Below, piece by piece: positions 6,287-59,481 of a DNA stretch of 64,000 nt (position 1 is the first letter of the stretch; the number at the start of each line of letters is the position of its first letter). The notes below the pieces were generated by a model that did not search any database, was not told the DNA's origin, and saw nothing but the letters and a program-made list of their open reading frames with translations. Source of the stretch: Mesorhizobium sp. WSM3859 (lineage in GTDB: Bacteria; Pseudomonadota; Alphaproteobacteria; Rhizobiales; Rhizobiaceae); contig NZ_NSGG01000003.1 in assembly GCF_002295065.1 (NCBI RefSeq), forward strand, positions 248,001 to 312,000. Reading direction: 5' to 3'. The translations under genes were made by a program, and so were the position numbers.

Positions 6287-6838
6287 TCAGGCGGCGCTCG
6301 GCACCATCTGGCGGCCGCCGCCGAAGCCGAGCGCGGCGCCCAGCGCAACCACCATCGCCATGCCGGCAAGAATGCCGATGTCGTGCAAAGTCGGCTTCAG
6401 CACCATGTCGGCGATGATCACCAGCATCACAGCATAATCGAGGCGCGCCCATTTCATCATGCGCTGGCCGATGGCGAGAGCCGTCGGCGTCACCCCCTCC
6501 TTGGCGATCATGGCGCCTATGCGCTCGCCGGTCGGTTTGAAGACCAGCATGCCGATCGAGAAGGTCGTGGCATAGCCGACGAGGCCGATGACGATCCACA
6601 GTTCGGTGAAGCCGACCCAGAAGCCGCACATGACGAGACCGAAGACCAGCGTCAGCATCGACATCGGCGCGAAGAACTTGCTGCCGAGCTGGCCGGTGGC
6701 GCGCATCGCCTGCAGCCTATCCTCGATGTTGCCGGCGCGCTCGGCCAGCACGCCGAGCAGGAACAGCACGAAGCCGCCGCCGACCCACAAAATGGCCGAA
6801 ACAACGTGCAGGAATTTGACAATCGAATACCAGTCCAT
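6287..6838 (-). CDS. DUF2269-type integral membrane protein
   Basis: A 183-residue membrane protein with about four to five transmembrane segments. It begins MDWYSIVKFLHVVSAILWVG, the W-x-x-x-x-F-L-H-V-x-x-x-I-x-W-V-G-G start that characterises the DUF2269 group. Conserved Gly-rich helices follow (G-F-V-L-F-L-L-G and V-F-G-L-V-M-C-G-F-W-V-G). The function is unknown; the N-terminal His in the first helix recalls membrane haem or copper proteins, but this is only inference. The start at 6838 is chosen because the upstream in-frame sequence is Arg-rich and has no membrane segment. Confidence 0.8.
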   Translation of the reverse strand: MDWYSIVKFLHVVSAILWVGGGFVLFLLGVLAERAGNIEDRLQAMRATGQLGSKFFAPMSMLTLVFGLVMCGFWVGFTELWIVIGLVGYATTFSIGMLVFKPTGERIGAMIAKEGVTPTALAIGQRMMKWARLDYAVMLVIIADMVLKPTLHDIGILAGMAMVVALGAALGFGGGRQMVPSAA

Positions 6839-7071
6839 GGTTTGCTCCCGGATGTGCTTGTTGGTTTGCGCCGGCGCGGGTTTGCGTAGCGCTTGAGAGG
6901 AGCGGCCTTTTGCGTGGCGCGTGTTTCTGAACGATGCCGCGGCAGCGGCCGGCATGTTTCGAAGCCGCGACCGATGGCCGAAAATCCGGCTCTCGGACGA
7001 TCTTGGAAAAGGCGGCCGGCTGTCCTGTTCCGGCACATGAAAGCGCGTTCGATTAAAAAATCGCAGCGGCG

Positions 7072-52700: not shown

Positions 52701-53282
52701 TCAGGCAGCTTCTTCCTGTTCGGATTCTTCGTTGTCGGCCTTGGCGCCCCGCTTCGGGCCCTTGTTGAGGTTGACCTCGATGAGGCGCACCGCCTCGGTC
52801 TCCGACATGCGGTTCACCGCGGCGATCTCGCGGGCCATGCGGTCGAGCGCGGCTTCATAGAGCTGACGCTCGGAATAGGACTGCTCCGGCTGGTTGTCGG
52901 CGCGGTAGAGGTCGCGGACGACTTCCGAGATCGAGATCAGGTCGCCGGAATTGATCTTGGCATCATATTCCTGGGCGCGGCGCGACCACATGGTGCGCTT
53001 GATGCGGGCGCGGCCCTGCACGACCTTCAGCGCGCGGTCGACATAATCCTCTTCCGACAGCTTGCGCATGCCGATCGAGGTCGCCTTGGCGACCGGCACC
53101 TTCAGCCGCATCTTGTCCTTCTGGAAATCGATGACGAACAGTTCCAGCTTGTGACCCGCAACTTCCTGTTCGTCGATCGCCACGATCTGGCCGACGCCAT
53201 GCGCCGGATAGACGATGAACTCGCCGGTCTTGAACCCGTGGCGGGCCGCGGTGGACTTCTTCTGCGGGGTGATCGTTGCCAT
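52701..53282 (-). CDS. carD: CarD-family transcriptional regulator
   Basis: CarD binds RNA polymerase and stabilises the open promoter complex. The 193-residue protein has the N-terminal Tudor-like RNAP-interacting domain (F-K-T-G-E-F-I-V-Y-P-A-H-G-V-G-Q-I-V-A-I and L-F-V-I-D-F) and a helical C-terminal DNA-binding domain with M-W-S-R-R-A-Q-E-Y (the Trp inserts at the -10 edge). It ends with an acidic tail. It is the last of the minus-strand run helicase-S4-fdxA-carD, though with a 374-bp gap to fdxA. Confidence 0.95.
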   Translation of the reverse strand: MATITPQKKSTAARHGFKTGEFIVYPAHGVGQIVAIDEQEVAGHKLELFVIDFQKDKMRLKVPVAKATSIGMRKLSEEDYVDRALKVVQGRARIKRTMWSRRAQEYDAKINSGDLISISEVVRDLYRADNQPEQSYSERQLYEAALDRMAREIAAVNRMSETEAVRLIEVNLNKGPKRGAKADNEESEQEEAA

Positions 53283-53656
53283 TACGCCCTGAACTCCTTA
53301 GTTGTGCCGCCGGCATCATGCCGGCGCGAACCCATGGGGCCGGCGATAGCCGACCGTTAGCCGTCGCAACAGGATGAACCCACCGGAAAAGCAGGGGACC
53401 GGCATATCGCACAAATGCGACCGCCTGCCCCAGATCGCTCTGGTCCGGATTTAAAAGCTCACCTTTCAGTGATTTGGGGCGTTAGCGCCATAAATCGACG
53501 TCGTGTCACCGGCATGTTTAGCTTATGTAACACAAAAAGTCGGAAGAATCAAGGTTTTGCCGCGTTCGCTAACGCCAAGCGGCAGCGCTGCCTGTCAAGA
53601 CAGTATTTGCATCGGCCCCGTTACGCGGCGTCATGCCAGCGATATCGGCCTCTTTA
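53283..53656. other. Gap between fdxA and carD
   Basis: 374 bp without a gene or a clear repeat. It must hold the carD promoter. Candidate -10/-35 elements are unclear; an A/T-rich segment around 53515-53545 is the likeliest place. Confidence 0.4.
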
Positions 53657-53995
53657 TCAATCACCCTCGCCGGGTTCGGTCGAGAAATATTTCTCGAACT
53701 TCCCGGCCTCGCCATCAAAGGTCTTGGCGTCGGCCGGCGGTTCTTTCTTGGCCGTGATGTTCGGCCATTTCTCGGCGTATTCGGCGTTGATCTGCAACCA
53801 TTTGTCGAGACCGCCCTCGGTGTCCGGCTTGATCGCGTCCGCCGGGCATTCGGGCTCGCACACGCCACAGTCGATGCACTCGTCGGGATGGATGACGAGC
53901 ATGTTCTCGCCCTCGTAGAAACAGTCGACCGGGCAGACCTCGATGCAGTCCATATATTTGCATTTGATGCAATTGTCGGTCACGACATAGGTCAT
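53657..53995 (-). CDS. fdxA: Seven-iron ferredoxin FdxA
   Basis: The 112-residue ferredoxin has [22 protein letters not shown] with the typical C-x7-C-x3-C-P pattern for the [3Fe-4S] cluster, then [12 protein letters not shown] for the [4Fe-4S] cluster. A C-terminal extension of about 50 residues is usual. It carries electrons for cytosolic reductases. The start at MTYVVTD is fixed by the family; an upstream in-frame extension is not. Confidence 0.95.
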
Positions 53996-54197
53996 TGCAG
54001 GCTCCGGAACGTCCCATTTTGTTGGGCTTTTTGGCTGAGGTAACGCCTTTGCCCGCCGCATGCAAGGGTAGGGATTGCCGGCGGAGCCGGAGGGCCGGAA
54101 AGGAATTCCGGCCGGAAGAGCGGATCGAGGTCATCGAGCCTGATCGCCGCGCAGTTTTCGCGGAATTGCTCCAGCTACGCCCTAGGCCGGTTATGTC

Positions 54198-54584
54198 TCA
54201 ATCGTCGCCGAGCAGACGGTCAGTCTGGCGGCGCTCGCGTTTGGTCGGGCGGCCGCTGCCGGCCTCGCGCAGCGCCGGAATGGCGTCCGCAACGGCCTCG
54301 CCTTTGGGCGTGGGTACCGGCGACATGTCCTCGTAGAGCAGGCGCGCTTCATCGGCCGGCCCGCGCCGCGTGCCGCAGCTCACCACTTTCCAGACCAGGA
54401 TACGGCCCTCGAGCGTGATGGTCAGCACGTCGCCTGGCTTCACCAGATCGGAGGCCTGCGCTGCTTTGTCGCGATTGATGCGCACGCGTCCGGCGACGAC
54501 GACCTTCGCCGCCAGCGAGCGCGATTTCACCGCGCGCGAGAAGAACAGCCATTTGTCGATGCGCTGGCGGCCTTCTCCAACCAT
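54198..54584 (-). CDS. S4-domain RNA-binding protein (HSP15-like)
   Basis: A 128-residue protein with an S4 domain: R-I-D-K-W-L-F-F-S-R-A-V-K-S-R-S-L-A-A-K and V-R-I-N-R-D-K, then P-G-D-V-L-T-I. HSP15/YrfH relatives bind stalled large-subunit ribosomes and recycle peptidyl-tRNA. The C-terminus is basic (K-R-E-R-R-Q-T-D-R). Its start is 15 bp after the helicase stop, so the two are translated from one message. Confidence 0.9.
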   Translation of the reverse strand: MVGEGRQRIDKWLFFSRAVKSRSLAAKVVVAGRVRINRDKAAQASDLVKPGDVLTITLEGRILVWKVVSCGTRRGPADEARLLYEDMSPVPTPKGEAVADAIPALREAGSGRPTKRERRQTDRLLGDD

Positions 54585-54599
54585 TGCAACCGGCCGAGG

Positions 54600-57500
54600 T
54601 TATTTCTTCAGCTGGTCGCGCAAGGCGGCGAGCTTGGCGAAGGGCGAATCCGGATCGAAGCGCTGTGGGCGCTCTTCGCGCGGCTTGCCCTGGAAGGCCG
54701 GCTTGCCGCCCGGAGCGTTGCCCTTGCCGTCCTGCCGGTTGCCCTTCCAGTCGGGCCGGCCGTCGCGGCGGCCCCCCTCGTGGCGATCCGGGCGCTCGCC
54801 TTGCGGCCTGCCTTCGCGGCGTTCACCGCCCTCGCGGCGGTCGCCTGCATCCGGCCTTGGCTTGAATTTCGAGCGGTCGAAGCGCGGCTTGCCGGCGCCG
54901 TCGCTCTGCTCGCGGCGGCCTTCATGGGCCGGCCGGTCGCCGGGCTGGCCGCCTGCGGCACCCGCCTCGCGCGCGGGCTGGCCACCGCGCGGGCGATTGT
55001 CGCGACGGTTGTCGTGGCGCTGGCGCTGGCGCGGATGGTCGAAACGCGCCTGGCGCCACAGAAGGACAGGTTTCGGTTCCTCTGCTTCGGCTGCGGGCGC
55101 GCTGCTTTCACCTTCCCCCTCGTGGGGAGGGTCGGCGCGCAGCGCCGGGGAGGGGGGAGCGCCGGCTTCGGTGGCATCGGCACTGCCTGTATCGTCGCCG
55201 CCGTCACCCCCACCCGCGTCGCTTCGCGCCGCGACCTCCTCCATCGAGGGAGAGGTGGGCGCGTCGGCGCTTGCGGCCAACTCGGTCGCTGCAGCAATGT
55301 CCACCGCTTCGGTCTCTTCCACAGCCGGAGCCTCTTCCGCGACCTCGATCGGAACCTCTGCCGGCTCTCCCGCGACAGGTTCCGCTGCCGCTTCCGCAAC
55401 GGCTTCAGCCGGAGCTTCGGCTACCGGTTCGACGGCGGCCGGCTCCGAACCCTCGGCCGATGTCTCGGCAACCGTGTCCGTCGTCGCAACTTCGGCCGCC
55501 GCTGCCTGCGCGGCACGCGCCGCTTCTTCAGTCGCCAGCTTGGCGGCAGCCTGTTCACGGACAGCGTCGTCCAGCGCGTCGAGCTTCGCCTTCACTTCGG
55601 CGGCAGGCTTCGCCTCGGCGCGATAGCCGAGACCCTTGAGGATCTCTTCCATGTCGTCGGCGGTGGCGCCGAGGATCGACATCATCGGCGGCGTCACCAT
55701 GAAGGCGTGGCCGTCATAGGCGCCGTCAGGACGCTGGCCGAGGCCGGGCTTCCAGTTGGTCGCCGGACGGATGAGGTCGGCAAGCCGTTCGAGGATATCG
55801 ACGCGCACGGCGCGGCGGCCGAGATTGCGATAGCCGGCGAGCTTGTAGAAGGTCTTGTCGAAGGCCGGGTCGATGACGACCGAGGTGCGGCCAGAAGCCA
55901 GCGCATGCACCACATCGCCGAAGCCCGGCTTGTCCTTGCCGTCGTTCTTCAGCGCCCATAGCAGGGTCACCAGACCGGCCGGCGCCGGCTTGATCAGCGC
56001 CGGCACGAAGACATGGTAGGCGCCGAAGCGCACGCCGAGCCGGCGCAGCGCCGCGCGGCCTTCCTGATCGAGCGACTTCATCTCCTCGGCGATGTCGCGG
56101 CGATTGATCAGGCCGAAATGCTCGACGAGCTGGAAGGCGATGCCGCGTGCGATACCGGTGAGCTGGTCGGCATTCTTCAAATCGACCAGCGGCTTCAGCA
56201 GCGACTCGATCTGGAAATTGACGAAACGCTCGGCGCGCGCCGCGACCTTGTCGCGGGCAGGGCCGGTCAGCTGCTCGTCGGCAAGCAGGACCAGGCGCGG
56301 CTTCAGTGCCTCGTCACCGCCGACCAGCGTGCCGATCGGCGCGCCGATCCAGCGCAGGACGCCGTCGGAGCCCAAGGCCAGGTCGCCATTGGCGCAGGCG
56401 GCAAATCGTTCGGCGCGCGCGTCGAACTCGGCCGCGAGCGCCTTCTGAGCGGCGGTGCGCACCGCCTTGGCGTCCTCGCCGCCGGCGCTTTGGTCGGCGG
56501 TGAAGCGGAACCCCTGCAACTCACCGACATGATGGCCTTCGACGAGGACGGTTCCGGTTGGGCTGATTTCGGCTTCAGGCATGGTATTTTCTCTAAGGCG
56601 CCGCATGAGGACGGAAGTCCTGCGGTCTACGAAGCGTTTCGTCAACCGCTCATGCAGCGCATCCGACAATCTGTCTTCGATTTCGCGCGTCTTTTCCTGC
56701 CAGTGTAGCTGATCGGCCAGCCATCCAGGGCGGTTGGAGACGAAAGTCCAGGTGCGGATCTGCGCGATCCGGTGGGAGAGCGTGTCGATATCGCCTTCCG
56801 TCGTGTCGGCGCGCCGCACCTGCTCGGCCATGTAATTCTCATCGACATGGCCATGGCGCGCAAGGTCCATATAGATGGAGGCGATGAGATCGGCGTGTTG
56901 GGCGGGCGCGATCTTGCGGTAGTCGGGGAGCGCGCAGGCTTCCCAGAGCAGCGCGACACGCTCCTTGCCGGTGGCCAAAGCGCGGATGTCGCCGTCCTTC
57001 GACAGATGCTCCAGCGCCTGCGCGTCGACAGCCGGCAGTGCGCGGGTCAGCCCTTCGACCGGCGCATTGGTCTCAGTCGAGCGCTTGAGCGCGTCGAGGC
57101 TGGAAAAATCGAAATCGGCGGTGCGCCATTGCAGCACCTTCACCGGGTCGAAATCATGCGCCTCGATCTTGGCGACCAGATCGTCGTCGAACGGGTCGAC
57201 CTGGCCGGTGACGCCGAACGTGCCGTCGCGCAGGTGCCGGCCGGCGCGGCCGGCGATCTGCCCGAGCTCGGCGGCGGTGAGGTTGCGGTATTGGTAACCG
57301 TCGAACTTGCGGTTCTGGGCGAAGGCGACGTGCTCGAGGTCGAGGTTCAGCCCCATGCCGATGGCGTCTGTCGCGACGAGATAGTCTACGTCGCCGGACT
57401 GGAAGATCTCCACCTGCGCGTTGCGGGTGCGTGGGCTAAGCGCGCCGAGCACGACGGCCGCGCCGCCCTGCTGGCGGCGGATCAACTCGGCGATGGCATA

Positions 57501-58061
57501 GACCTCGTCGGCCGAGAAAGCGACGATCGCTGTGCGCCGCGGCAGCCGGGTCAGCTTCTTCGACCCGGCATAGGCAAGGTGCGACAGCCGCGGCCGGGTC
57601 ACCACCGATACGCCCTTCAAGAGCTTCTGCAGGATACCATGCATGGTGGCCGCACCCAGCAGCAGCGTCTCCTGGCGGCCGCGCAGATGCAGGACGCGGT
57701 CGGTGAAGATATGGCCGCGCTCGAGATCGCCGGCGAGCTGCACTTCGTCGATGGCGACGAAGGCGGCGTCGGTCTCGCGCGGCATCGCCTCGACGGTGCA
57801 GACCGAATATCTCGCGCCGGCAGGGACGATCTTCTCCTCGCCGGTGATCAGCGCCACCTTGTGGGCGCCGACCTTTTCGCAGACGCGGGCATAGACCTCG
57901 CGGGCGAGCAGCCGGAGCGGCAGGCCGATGATGCCGCTCTCATGCGCAACCATGCGCTCGATGGCGAGATGGGTCTTGCCGGTGTTGGTGGGGCCGAGCA
58001 CGGCCGTCACGTCGCGGCCCGAAAGGATCAGCGGCTGGGAGTGTTTCGGCTGGATATTCAT
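54600..58061 (-). CDS. SUV3-like DEAD/DEAH RNA helicase with very long disordered tail
   Basis: The 1153-residue protein is a superfamily 2 helicase resembling mitochondrial SUV3 and is conserved in alphaproteobacteria. Walker A G-P-T-N-T-G-K-T (23-30), motif II D-E-V-Q (104-107), then A-T-D-A-I-G-M-G-L-N-L and Q-I-A-G-R-A-G-R-H. The SUV3 C-domain extends to about residue 800. The remainder is Ala/Glu/Pro-rich, then very Arg/Gly-rich (RNA-binding). About residues 935-985 are coded by an inserted GC-rich repeat (55108-55259). The start at M-N-I-Q-P-K (58061) was chosen; an in-frame ATG at 58133 would add 24 residues. It heads helicase-S4-fdxA. Confidence 0.88.
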   Translation of the reverse strand: MNIQPKHSQPLILSGRDVTAVLGPTNTGKTHLAIERMVAHESGIIGLPLRLLAREVYARVCEKVGAHKVALITGEEKIVPAGARYSVCTVEAMPRETDAAFVAIDEVQLAGDLERGHIFTDRVLHLRGRQETLLLGAATMHGILQKLLKGVSVVTRPRLSHLAYAGSKKLTRLPRRTAIVAFSADEVYAIAELIRRQQGGAAVVLGALSPRTRNAQVEIFQSGDVDYLVATDAIGMGLNLDLEHVAFAQNRKFDGYQYRNLTAAELGQIAGRAGRHLRDGTFGVTGQVDPFDDDLVAKIEAHDFDPVKVLQWRTADFDFSSLDALKRSTETNAPVEGLTRALPAVDAQALEHLSKDGDIRALATGKERVALLWEACALPDYRKIAPAQHADLIASIYMDLARHGHVDENYMAEQVRRADTTEGDIDTLSHRIAQIRTWTFVSNRPGWLADQLHWQEKTREIEDRLSDALHERLTKRFVDRRTSVLMRRLRENTMPEAEISPTGTVLVEGHHVGELQGFRFTADQSAGGEDAKAVRTAAQKALAAEFDARAERFAACANGDLALGSDGVLRWIGAPIGTLVGGDEALKPRLVLLADEQLTGPARDKVAARAERFVNFQIESLLKPLVDLKNADQLTGIARGIAFQLVEHFGLINRRDIAEEMKSLDQEGRAALRRLGVRFGAYHVFVPALIKPAPAGLVTLLWALKNDGKDKPGFGDVVHALASGRTSVVIDPAFDKTFYKLAGYRNLGRRAVRVDILERLADLIRPATNWKPGLGQRPDGAYDGHAFMVTPPMMSILGATADDMEEILKGLGYRAEAKPAAEVKAKLDALDDAVREQAAAKLATEEAARAAQAAAAEVATTDTVAETSAEGSEPAAVEPVAEAPAEAVAEAAAEPVAGEPAEVPIEVAEEAPAVEETEAVDIAAATELAASADAPTSPSMEEVAARSDAGGGDGGDDTGSADATEAGAPPSPALRADPPHEGEGESSAPAAEAEEPKPVLLWRQARFDHPRQRQRHDNRRDNRPRGGQPAREAGAAGGQPGDRPAHEGRREQSDGAGKPRFDRSKFKPRPDAGDRREGGERREGRPQGERPDRHEGGRRDGRPDWKGNRQDGKGNAPGGKPAFQGKPREERPQRFDPDSPFAKLAALRDQLKK
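55108..55259. repeat. GC-rich dispersed repeat inside the helicase gene
   Basis: The plus strand has CCTTCCCCCTCGTGGGGAGG, GTCGGCGCGCAGCGCCGG and GGGGGGAGC at one end, and CACCCCCACCCGCGTCGCTTC, GCGCCGCGACCTCCTCCATC and GAGGGAGAGGTG at the other. It is like the elements at 42347-42510 and 52505-52625. It keeps the helicase frame open and encodes S-P-S-M-E-E-V-A-A-R-S-D and P-P-S-P-A-L-R-A-D-P-P-H-E-G-E-G-E. Confidence 0.75.
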
Positions 58062-58585
58062 CGGCTCGGAATTAAGTGTTTCTGCCGCTTCTGGTCGGCG
58101 CGCGGCGGCGCCGCCGCGTGTGACAGCCGACACATAGGGATTTAGGACGCCGAGCGAAAGCGGAATGTTCTTTTGGGCTGGCGGGAATCGGCGGACCCGG
58201 TCAAAACCGCCTGGCGTTAACGGGTGGAACGAGTCTGGAACGAATCAGCGACGAATCGCTGACTCGGTCTGATTCAGGTTTTGTTCACGGCTATATGTGG
58301 ATTTTTTGACGGTGAGTCTCACCACATGCTGAATCGGGAAACTGGCCCGATTCATGCTTTGCCTCCGCCGGGATCGAGCCGTCGTTAACTTTTGTCGGTG
58401 AAGGTCGCGGTCGATTCGAGGACCGTCGTCAAGGTTATGAATTTGTTGATTTTTCTTAATCGCTTTTAACGATTCGGGTAAGGTTTTCGCCCTCCGCCGT
58501 TAACATTTCGGCCAAAGCCAGAACGAATCGGCGACGAATCAGAGATGCAGGAAGTTTCCCGGTTTGTTCACCCCTAGATATGGTG

Positions 58586-58594
58586 TTATCCACA
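58586..58594 (+). promoter_or_regulatory. Perfect DnaA box TTATCCACA
   Basis: TTATCCACA is the consensus high-affinity DnaA site. A second, two-mismatch copy on the opposite strand (TGTGGATTT) lies at 58296-58304. It sits within the GANTC cluster. Confidence 0.75.
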
Positions 58595-58707
58595 GCTTAC
58601 CCACCGAGGATTCACAGCTTGTGAGAGGGTTGCGCACAGAGCGCGACGGGGGCTGTTAACTTTTGCGTCCCGAATTGAGGCAAGGTGCCGCGCCGGCTTT
58701 GCTGCTG

Positions 58708-58741
58708 GCGAAAAAGGCGGCCCCGACGCCGGAGCCGCCCC
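58708..58741 (-). terminator. Terminator of phbB
   Basis: On the minus strand GGCGGC...GCCGCC (arms 58716-58721 and 58734-58739) with an extended GC-rich inner stem and a TTTTT run. Confidence 0.8.
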
Positions 58742-58755
58742 GGCGACAAATGATG

Positions 58756-59481
58756 TCAGGCGAAGTACTGGCCGCCATTGGCGGTGATGGTGGAGCCGGT
58801 GATGAAGCCGGCCTCGTCGGAAGCCAGGAAGACGACGCAGCGCGCGATCTCTTCCGGCTCGCCGAGGCGGCCGACGGGGATCTGCGGGATGATGCGCTCA
58901 TTGAGCACCTTCTCGTCGATCGCCTTGACCATGTCGGTGGCGATATAGCCCGGACAGATGACGTTGACGGTGATGCCCGCACGTGCCCCTTCTTGTGCGA
59001 GCGCCTTCGAGAAGCCGATATCGCCGGCCTTCGAGGCCGAATAGTTGACCTGGCCGGCCTGGCCCTTCTGGCCGTTGATCGAGGAAATAGTGATGACGCG
59101 GCCGAACTTGCGGTCGCGCATGCCGCCCCACAGCGGGTGCGTCATGTTGAAGACGCCGGAGAGGTTGGTGTCGATCACTTCCTTCCACTGCGCGGGCGTC
59201 ATCTTGTGGAACATGGCGTCGCGGGTGATGCCGGCATTGTTGACAAGAACTGAGACCGGGCCGAGATCGGCTTCGATCTGCTTGATGCCGGCGGCGCAGG
59301 CATCGTAGTCGGCGACGGACCATTTGTAGACCGGGATGCCGGTCTCGGCCTTGAATTTCTGGGCCGCCTCGTCATTGCCGGCATAGTTGGCCGCGACCGA
59401 ATAGCCGGCGTTCTTCAAGGCGACCGATACCGCAGCACCAATGCCGCGCGACCCGCCGGTGACGATTGCTACTTTGCTCAT
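58756..59481 (-). CDS. phbB: Acetoacetyl-CoA reductase PhbB
   Basis: The 241-residue short-chain dehydrogenase reduces acetoacetyl-CoA to (R)-3-hydroxybutyryl-CoA with NADPH, the second step of polyhydroxybutyrate synthesis. It has V-T-G-G-S-R-G-I-G-A-A, N-N-A-G-I-T-R-D, the catalytic Ser of I-S-S-I-N-G, and Y-S-A-S-K-A-G. Family signature I-C-P-G-Y-I-A-T-D-M-V is present. It follows phaA (120 bp) on the same strand and has a terminator. Confidence 0.95.
   Translation of the reverse strand: MSKVAIVTGGSRGIGAAVSVALKNAGYSVAANYAGNDEAAQKFKAETGIPVYKWSVADYDACAAGIKQIEADLGPVSVLVNNAGITRDAMFHKMTPAQWKEVIDTNLSGVFNMTHPLWGGMRDRKFGRVITISSINGQKGQAGQVNYSASKAGDIGFSKALAQEGARAGITVNVICPGYIATDMVKAIDEKVLNERIIPQIPVGRLGEPEEIARCVVFLASDEAGFITGSTITANGGQYFA

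Follow-up and report, generated by a model that had tools for sequence, protein, structure and literature searches.

The intergenic region between phbB and the gene of a Suv3-like helicase (58062-58755 of the 64-kb window, the window being the whole stretch of DNA that was analysed) carries two copies of a conserved module of about 75 bp. The module is linked to the helicase gene, recurs at preferred spacings, holds a specific excess of CcrM sites (GANTC) that are helically phased, and contains SOS-type boxes with the pattern GTTCN7GTTC; these features are the solid part of the analysis. A sequence-only reading of the same DNA, which had drawn attention to the GANTC sites, overlooked this repeated module with its LexA-type boxes, which is the main structure of the region. 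With a probability of a little under one half (about 0.46), we read the region as what may be a composite control region, CcrM/GcrA-sensitive and of LexA type, dedicated to the helicase locus or operon.

The helicase gene (54600-58061, minus strand) encodes 1153 amino acids with Pfam matches to DEXQc_Suv3 (1.9e-26) and Helicase_C (2e-9); an NCBIfam search of the protein gave no match. On the other side of the gap lies phbB (58756-59481, minus strand), an acetoacetyl-CoA reductase gene identified by NCBIfam TIGR01829 above the cut-off. Behind the helicase, three genes follow on the same strand (52701-54584), for an S4-domain protein (Hsp15-like in NCBIfam, below the cut-off), ferredoxin FdxA (above the cut-off) and a third protein that has no NCBIfam match and that we take to be CarD-like. 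An annotated S4-domain gene also comes next after the helicase in the annotated records of relatives that were read. The pair phbB and helicase is kept in 76 of 80 Mesorhizobium-type loci, and the helicase gene is present in at least 245 of 247 genomes of the order. Ten genomes of the family gave no helicase match, nine of them small (1.1-2.6 Mb) and the tenth a fragmented 4.4-Mb assembly. The Suv3-like helicase may be the same gene as the Brucella helicase mgpS, which is BMEI0275 in the excerpt of PMC4070974.

Direct reading and a scan place 14 GANTC sites in the gap, at 58185, 58231, 58242, 58253, 58261, 58271, 58314, 58331, 58349, 58413, 58471, 58525, 58536 and 58609. The cluster is real: the 13 sites in 383 bp that had been reported are found at 58231-58613, and all 14 fall within 429 bp. 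Dinucleotide shuffling of the 694-bp gap (2000 shuffles) yields a mean of 3.2 GANTC and a maximum of 10, against the 14 observed. To estimate the background, 400 kb of the same genome were sampled as 20 stretches of 20 kb (19 contig starts and one stretch picked for hemE), and these contain 1.5 GANTC per kb. Counting per 400 bp, a check proposed with the original claim, bears it out within this sample: the fullest of 1000 bins holds 5 GANTC and the maximum of a sliding 400-bp window is 7, below the value at the locus. In G001, a complete relative sampled over 400 kb, no sliding 400-bp window exceeds 6, a value reached beside hemE. The 64-kb window as a whole is GANTC-poor, with 103 sites vs 320 expected. 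The other motifs reported for the gap are also present: four GTTAAC (58216, 58384, 58499 and 58655), one exact DnaA box TTATCCACA (58586-58594) and a direct repeat with one mismatch, the length of which is 20 bp rather than 19 bp (58238-58257 and 58521-58540).

A helicase-based scan identified the 80 Mesorhizobium-type loci; after removal of 4 without a phbB match and 17 whose gap measures at least 850 bp, 59 loci were aligned with the window (60 sequences). These 59 loci have 7-14 GANTC each, and six GANTC occupy a common column in 59-60 of the 60 aligned sequences, the window included. Five phased sites (58231, 58242, 58253, 58261 and 58271; 58231-58275, with the central one at 58253-58257) are found in 59-60 of 60, the two sites of the distal module (58525-58540) in 52 and 48 of 60. 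The sites at 58314 and 58331 (58314-58335) lie in and beside a conserved block, GATTCAGCATGTGGTGAG, and are kept in 50 and 60 of 60, respectively. This block is upstream of the proximal module and has a -35-like T.TgGt consensus in related loci. Loss of the GANTC spacing in related genomes had been named in advance as evidence against a functional cluster; across the 59 loci and the 60-sequence alignment the spacing is conserved.

Among the 17 loci with long gaps, 15 retain the five core GANTC by the helicase at distances of 10-8-11-11, one keeps four and L076 does not keep the array. Since the core GANTC stay near the helicase in 16 of these loci, their extra DNA lies on the phbB side. By eye, the ORFs inserted between phbB and the module in L035 and L046 (gap 2.7 kb) resemble those of a TetR regulator and an FAD-dependent enzyme, and the ORF inserted at the same place in L050 and L066 (gap 1.5-1.7 kb) resembles that of an aquaporin. 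Rhizobium sp. NLR16a has the entire locus on the 489-kb plasmid p3, where two genes separate phbB from the element and the element is beside the helicase.

The proximal module (58213-58302, minus strand; G000:C23:306213-306302; model R1, E 1.2e-22) is built from CAnATnTnG, GTGAACAAA, box A, five GANTC (spaced 10/8/11/11 bp), box B (GTTCN7GTTC) and GTTAAC, in this order, and is 83-84% identical in two other Mesorhizobium chromosomes. The distal module (58497-58586, minus strand; G000:C23:306497-306586; E 3.7e-15) has the same orientation and is 284 bp farther from the helicase. The majority consensus of the module is CnACATnTnGnCGTGAACAAAnCnnGAATCnGnnnGAGTCAGTGATTCGTCGCCGATTCGTTCCAGACTCGTTCCAnnnGTTAA. 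For the wider survey, loci of the order and class were picked for spread: 60 of the 141 family genomes with a helicase match, 20 from other families and 40 from other orders. In profile searches, 72 of the 80 order loci and 11 of the 40 other-order loci have the module upstream of the helicase, and 8 of the 80 order loci have none. All 293 module matches below E 0.001, those of the Mesorhizobium-type loci included, are on the strand of the helicase; one weak opposite-strand match (L178, E 0.0025) overlaps a plus-strand match, and 80 reversed sequences used as control contain no match. Order loci have one to four copies on the same strand, often in phase with one another, and the 11 other-order loci a single copy. 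Module-to-module spacing is 270-275 or 281-283 bp in 34 of 59 cases, within a full range of 152-1118 bp. The central GATTCG is almost invariant: all 59 distal and all 11 other-order modules have it, as do 71 of the 72 proximal ones. A sequence-model search of 120 genomes of the order gives a match at E up to 0.1 in at least 99, eight of these only above 0.001. Among the matches listed, the genome of the window has two, both at this locus.

GANTC sites are enriched in the order specifically. At least five per 400 bp are present in 61 of 80 order loci vs 1 of 40 other-order loci, and 25 of the 80 reach 9-15 per 400 bp. Within the 600 bp before the helicase, GANTC occurs at 11.2 per kb in the order vs 1.2-4.1 per kb for seven permuted palindromes; in other orders the value is 3.0. 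Proximal modules of relatives contain one to six GANTC, with five or six in 25 of 72. Outside the modules the density is 4.5-6.6 per kb, an excess that is partly ordinary because intergenic DNA is generally about 1.5-2-fold richer in GANTC (according to the excerpts of PMC3973325 and PMC8725594). The sites follow the helical repeat: 206 of the 329 neighbouring pairs within 40 bp are spaced 8, 10 or 11 bp, and the distances of 735 pairs within 60 bp are periodic (vector length 0.41, period 10-10.5 bp).

Two SOS-type boxes frame the core of the proximal module. Box B, GTTCCAGACTCGTTC (58227-58241, minus strand), is a GTTCN7GTTC direct repeat with a GANTC in its spacer; box A, GAACAAAACCTGAAT (58272-58286, minus strand), has the form GAACN7GAA[TC] and is inverted with respect to box B. 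Exact GTTCN7GTTC is present in 70 of 72 proximal order modules and in 76 of 76 Mesorhizobium-type loci; of the 59 distal modules just 8 have it, and of the 11 from other orders just 4. The box A pattern is degenerate (54 of 72 proximal modules). The distance between GTTC starts is strongly preferred, with 81 cases at 11 and at most 9 at any other distance from 4 to 25. GTTCN7GTTC is the SOS box of Caulobacter (PMC9578287, in excerpt). The pattern is found near lexA in all eight genomes searched, and the lexA operator of the genome of the window, GTTCCAGTTGTGTTC, resembles box B, sharing GTTCCAG....GTTC (a single operator, compared by eye). Genome-wide, boxes of the GTTCN7GTTC type occur at about the chance rate (9 in 400 kb vs about 12 expected). 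An SOS box usually occurs singly and lies across the promoter. Box B is 166-180 bp ahead of the helicase start codon, and in relatives the module ends 61-300 bp ahead of it in 65 of 72 loci. Among the order loci, 41 of 70 have a GANTC within the spacer of box B, as do 75 of the 76 Mesorhizobium-type loci, so methylation could affect the binding of the putative repressor.

These arrangements suggest how a control region of this kind might work. LexA or a LexA-like repressor would bind boxes A and B, and CcrM would methylate the GANTC sites within and between them. If CcrM does so, passage of the replication fork would leave the array hemimethylated until CcrM acts in late S phase; hemimethylation would alter how GcrA and the repressor bind, and the helicase and the downstream genes would be expressed in time with both replication and DNA damage.

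The main rival explanation places the function in the DNA itself: a cis-acting site whose main job is not helicase transcription, a methylation-reading nucleoprotein site at which hemimethylated GANTC would record that a fork has passed. Analogues are the iterons of Vibrio ori2, which contain GATC, and crtS and datA. The helical phasing of GANTC fits such a site, as does the difference of one helical turn between the two common spacings of the modules (near 272 and near 283 bp). Modules are also retained where an ORF stands before the helicase. In L118, L140 and L111, an ORF directed away from the helicase separates it from the module, and in L187 a same-strand ORF does so; these four are among five loci chosen for the long distance between the helicase and its nearest module. 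The module of L118, L140 and L111 cannot simply be the helicase promoter, given the intervening opposite ORF.

Other modules adjoin unrelated genes, which likewise counts against the helicase-promoter reading. At least 11 loci without the helicase (L404-L408 and L410-L415, from nine genomes) carry a module. Three of them (L405, L407 and L408, from three genomes of one genus) have extra modules in an extended gap next to Smr or MltA genes, with an AceE-like gene in L407, and just 6-7 GANTC per locus of 6-7 kb. One copy is in a prophage (L413:3001-3070), where it adjoins the major capsid gene on the opposite strand; another (L411) is near an exodeoxyribonuclease III gene, and in L415 an AraC-type gene starts about 1 kb downstream of the module. 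L404 and L415, from one family and with different neighbours, share the module and are also similar in the sequence to either side of it, which looks like the copying of a larger element. The neighbours at the remaining helicase-free loci are without family matches. A phage source was rejected, as a search in phages gave no match; a short pattern has at least 120 matches in viral contigs, a raw count uncorrected for chance.

Two further observations could be taken for such a DNA site. DnaA-like boxes (up to one mismatch) are denser in the last 700 bp (0.54 per kb) than further upstream (0.08 per kb), in raw figures that are uncorrected for base composition. In 25 of 29 single-contig genomes, no more than 0.81 Mb separates the helicase from hemE, which may be gene-order conservation alone. 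Against it, the element is tied to one gene and not to a chromosomal place: the distance between hemE and the helicase varies 60-fold, from 37 kb to 2.3 Mb (the hemE of G161 is below the cut-off, the first of two hemE was used in G279, and two contig sizes are rounded). The plasmid copy of the locus has the element too, and GTTCN7GTTC resembles a repressor box. On balance, we regard a DNA site of this kind as unlikely.

Still less probable is a conventional CcrM/GcrA-regulated promoter of the helicase, in which the GTTC repeats would serve GcrA or another regulator and not LexA. At least one site of the YGAKTCK type is present in each of the 144 modules below E 1e-6 (just four of which are from Mesorhizobium-type loci), and YGAKTCK is the GcrA-type motif of Caulobacter in the excerpt of PMC8725594. 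The GcrA peaks of Brucella abortus are 4.4-4.7-fold GANTC-rich (PMC6813329, in excerpt). The gcrA gene in the genome of the window (C5, L372) itself has four GANTC within about 180 bp on its presumed upstream side; a tandem TATTCGC-type repeat is found on the other side of the gcrA locus. The exact GTTC spacing of 11 and the likeness to the lexA operator of the same genome speak against this explanation. Known GcrA promoters need one or two sites, which also counts against it.

Promoter-like elements are weak. A possible -10-like element of the proximal module, CCACAT (58295-58300, minus strand), corresponds to the consensus C.A.AT at -14 to -9 from GAAC in 62 proximal modules; consensus blocks were analysed in the sets of 62, 34 and 8 modules that have the GAAC[AG]A anchor and sufficient flanking sequence. 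A possible helicase promoter, TTTCGC-N17-TATGTG (58131-58159, minus strand), follows a loose pattern in relatives: the final 160 bp contain the loose form in 73 of 76 Mesorhizobium-type loci, 5 of 60 other loci of the family and 0 of 20 loci of other families. A sigma-70 consensus scan of 57950-58800 found no promoter and scored neither CCACAT nor TTTCGC-N17-TATGTG. The -10/-35-like blocks of the modules are weak, and no excess of a -35 TTGAC was seen in them. The proposal of the sequence-only reading that the cluster could be an epigenetically controlled promoter of the helicase fits better than its origin proposal: the helicase link across the order, the GANTC excess and the GcrA-type sites agree with it, but a plain promoter is weakened by the three loci with an opposite ORF.

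Two other assignments were tried and rejected. TTAA-N7-TTAA, sought as the mark of a CtrA-regulated region, is found in 0 of 59 Mesorhizobium-type loci (the N6 form in 24 of 59), and the small RNA EcpR1 is encoded at the divK-pleD/rpmG locus, not here (PMC4414408, in excerpt).

Tandem genes for small non-coding RNAs, with each module serving as promoter and transcript start, would account for the -10/-35-like blocks before GTGAACAAA and for the helicase-free copies, most of which have no evident same-direction gene directly downstream in the crude gene calls. Yet an Rfam search of the gap at E up to 1 gave no match, RNAalifold found no conserved RNA structure in the module, a scan of 57950-58800 found no terminator-like site, and conservation ends about 75 bp past the supposed start. 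We consider this slightly less credible again than the conventional promoter. Over the stretch searched, Rfam gave two matches, both below the gathering score and both inside phbB.

The sequence-only reading had also raised the possibility of a second initiation or DnaA-titration site, noting correctly that hemE is not beside the cluster. The hemE gene of the same genome is on another contig, and in two complete Mesorhizobium chromosomes it is 477 and 497 kb from the locus. The exact DnaA box TTATCCACA (plus strand) overlaps the distal module's -35-like zone. Across the 59 Mesorhizobium-type loci, an exact box anywhere in the gap is present in 16 and one within one mismatch in 47, and at the aligned column of the box even a loose DnaA-type motif is kept in just 17 of 60 sequences. 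The flank of hemE in three Mesorhizobium-type genomes (L082, L083 and L084) has 5-6 GANTC per 400 bp, is AT-rich and contains DnaA-type boxes of its own; it looks like an ordinary oriC. GC skew over 20 stretches of G001 has no clear switch, the signal being too weak for placing an origin, and a parS-like pattern had 0 matches in three genomes. By position, the element is neither beside hemE nor at a fixed place near it; by DnaA boxes, it has one exact box instead of several conserved ones. As far as tested, then, the element is not an origin. A second chromosomal origin or DnaA-titration site could draw on the AT-rich stretch between the modules, the one exact DnaA box, a GANTC density above that of the hemE flank and the usual position within 0.81 Mb of hemE, but it is highly improbable given a single, poorly conserved DnaA box, a variable distance to a hemE flank with boxes and GANTC of its own, and an element that follows the helicase onto a 489-kb plasmid.

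The composite control region that we favour shares features with several known systems. Like the CcrM/GcrA promoters (Caulobacter ctrA, ftsZ and mipZ; Agrobacterium gcrA and repABC), it has GANTC in a putative control region; unlike them, it lies ahead of a helicase gene, is built from a module that is repeated, phased and equipped with SOS-type boxes, and reaches 9-15 GANTC per 400 bp in 25 of 80 order loci. The repABC loci have more GANTC than expected (PMC11514494, in excerpt). With the alphaproteobacterial LexA (SOS) operators it has the exact GTTCN7GTTC in common, but the box is far ahead of the start codon, inside a longer conserved module and with methylation sites in the spacer. Dam-dependent switches and iterons (pap, agn43 and the RctB sites of Vibrio ori2) have methylation sites that overlap regulator boxes about one helical turn apart. 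The element here likewise has methylation sites over putative regulator boxes at a spacing of about one helical turn, a likeness of sequence in which the sites are those of CcrM (GANTC) and the regulator would be a different one. It resembles the oriC beside hemE in its GANTC sites, one DnaA box and an AT-rich stretch, and differs from it in being linked to the helicase, without hemE and without a DnaA-box cluster.

A broader interpretation is tentative and, in our view, rather doubtful. The module may be a DNA element devoted to reading methylation. With CcrM sites placed inside repressor boxes, it would read the passage of replication together with DNA damage; a single module deep in the Alphaproteobacteria would have been multiplied, together with its GANTC, in the Rhizobiales. 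It would be a counterpart of Dam-controlled switches or iterons, possibly acting without a following gene.

CcrM is important for growth in the alphaproteobacteria named in the excerpts of PMC3667746 and PMC11514494. In the excerpt of PMC8725594, candidate targets in Ensifer were proposed from single GANTC near promoters, which its authors call non-diagnostic. The locus described here is a multi-site candidate that is conserved in the majority of the loci and genomes sampled from the order (72 of 80 and at least 99 of 120, respectively), and the question of what reads GANTC methylation in rhizobia becomes testable at one place. It also suggests that cell-cycle methylation and the SOS system communicate at this helicase gene; the literature searched gave no example of this, and no description of the module, of clustered GANTC or of a LexA box ahead of this helicase. 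A second GANTC cluster in the genome of the window (C7, L235, about 6429-6943) has up to 7 sites per 400 bp and is flanked, by eye, by a VirG-type response regulator and a type IV secretion operon.
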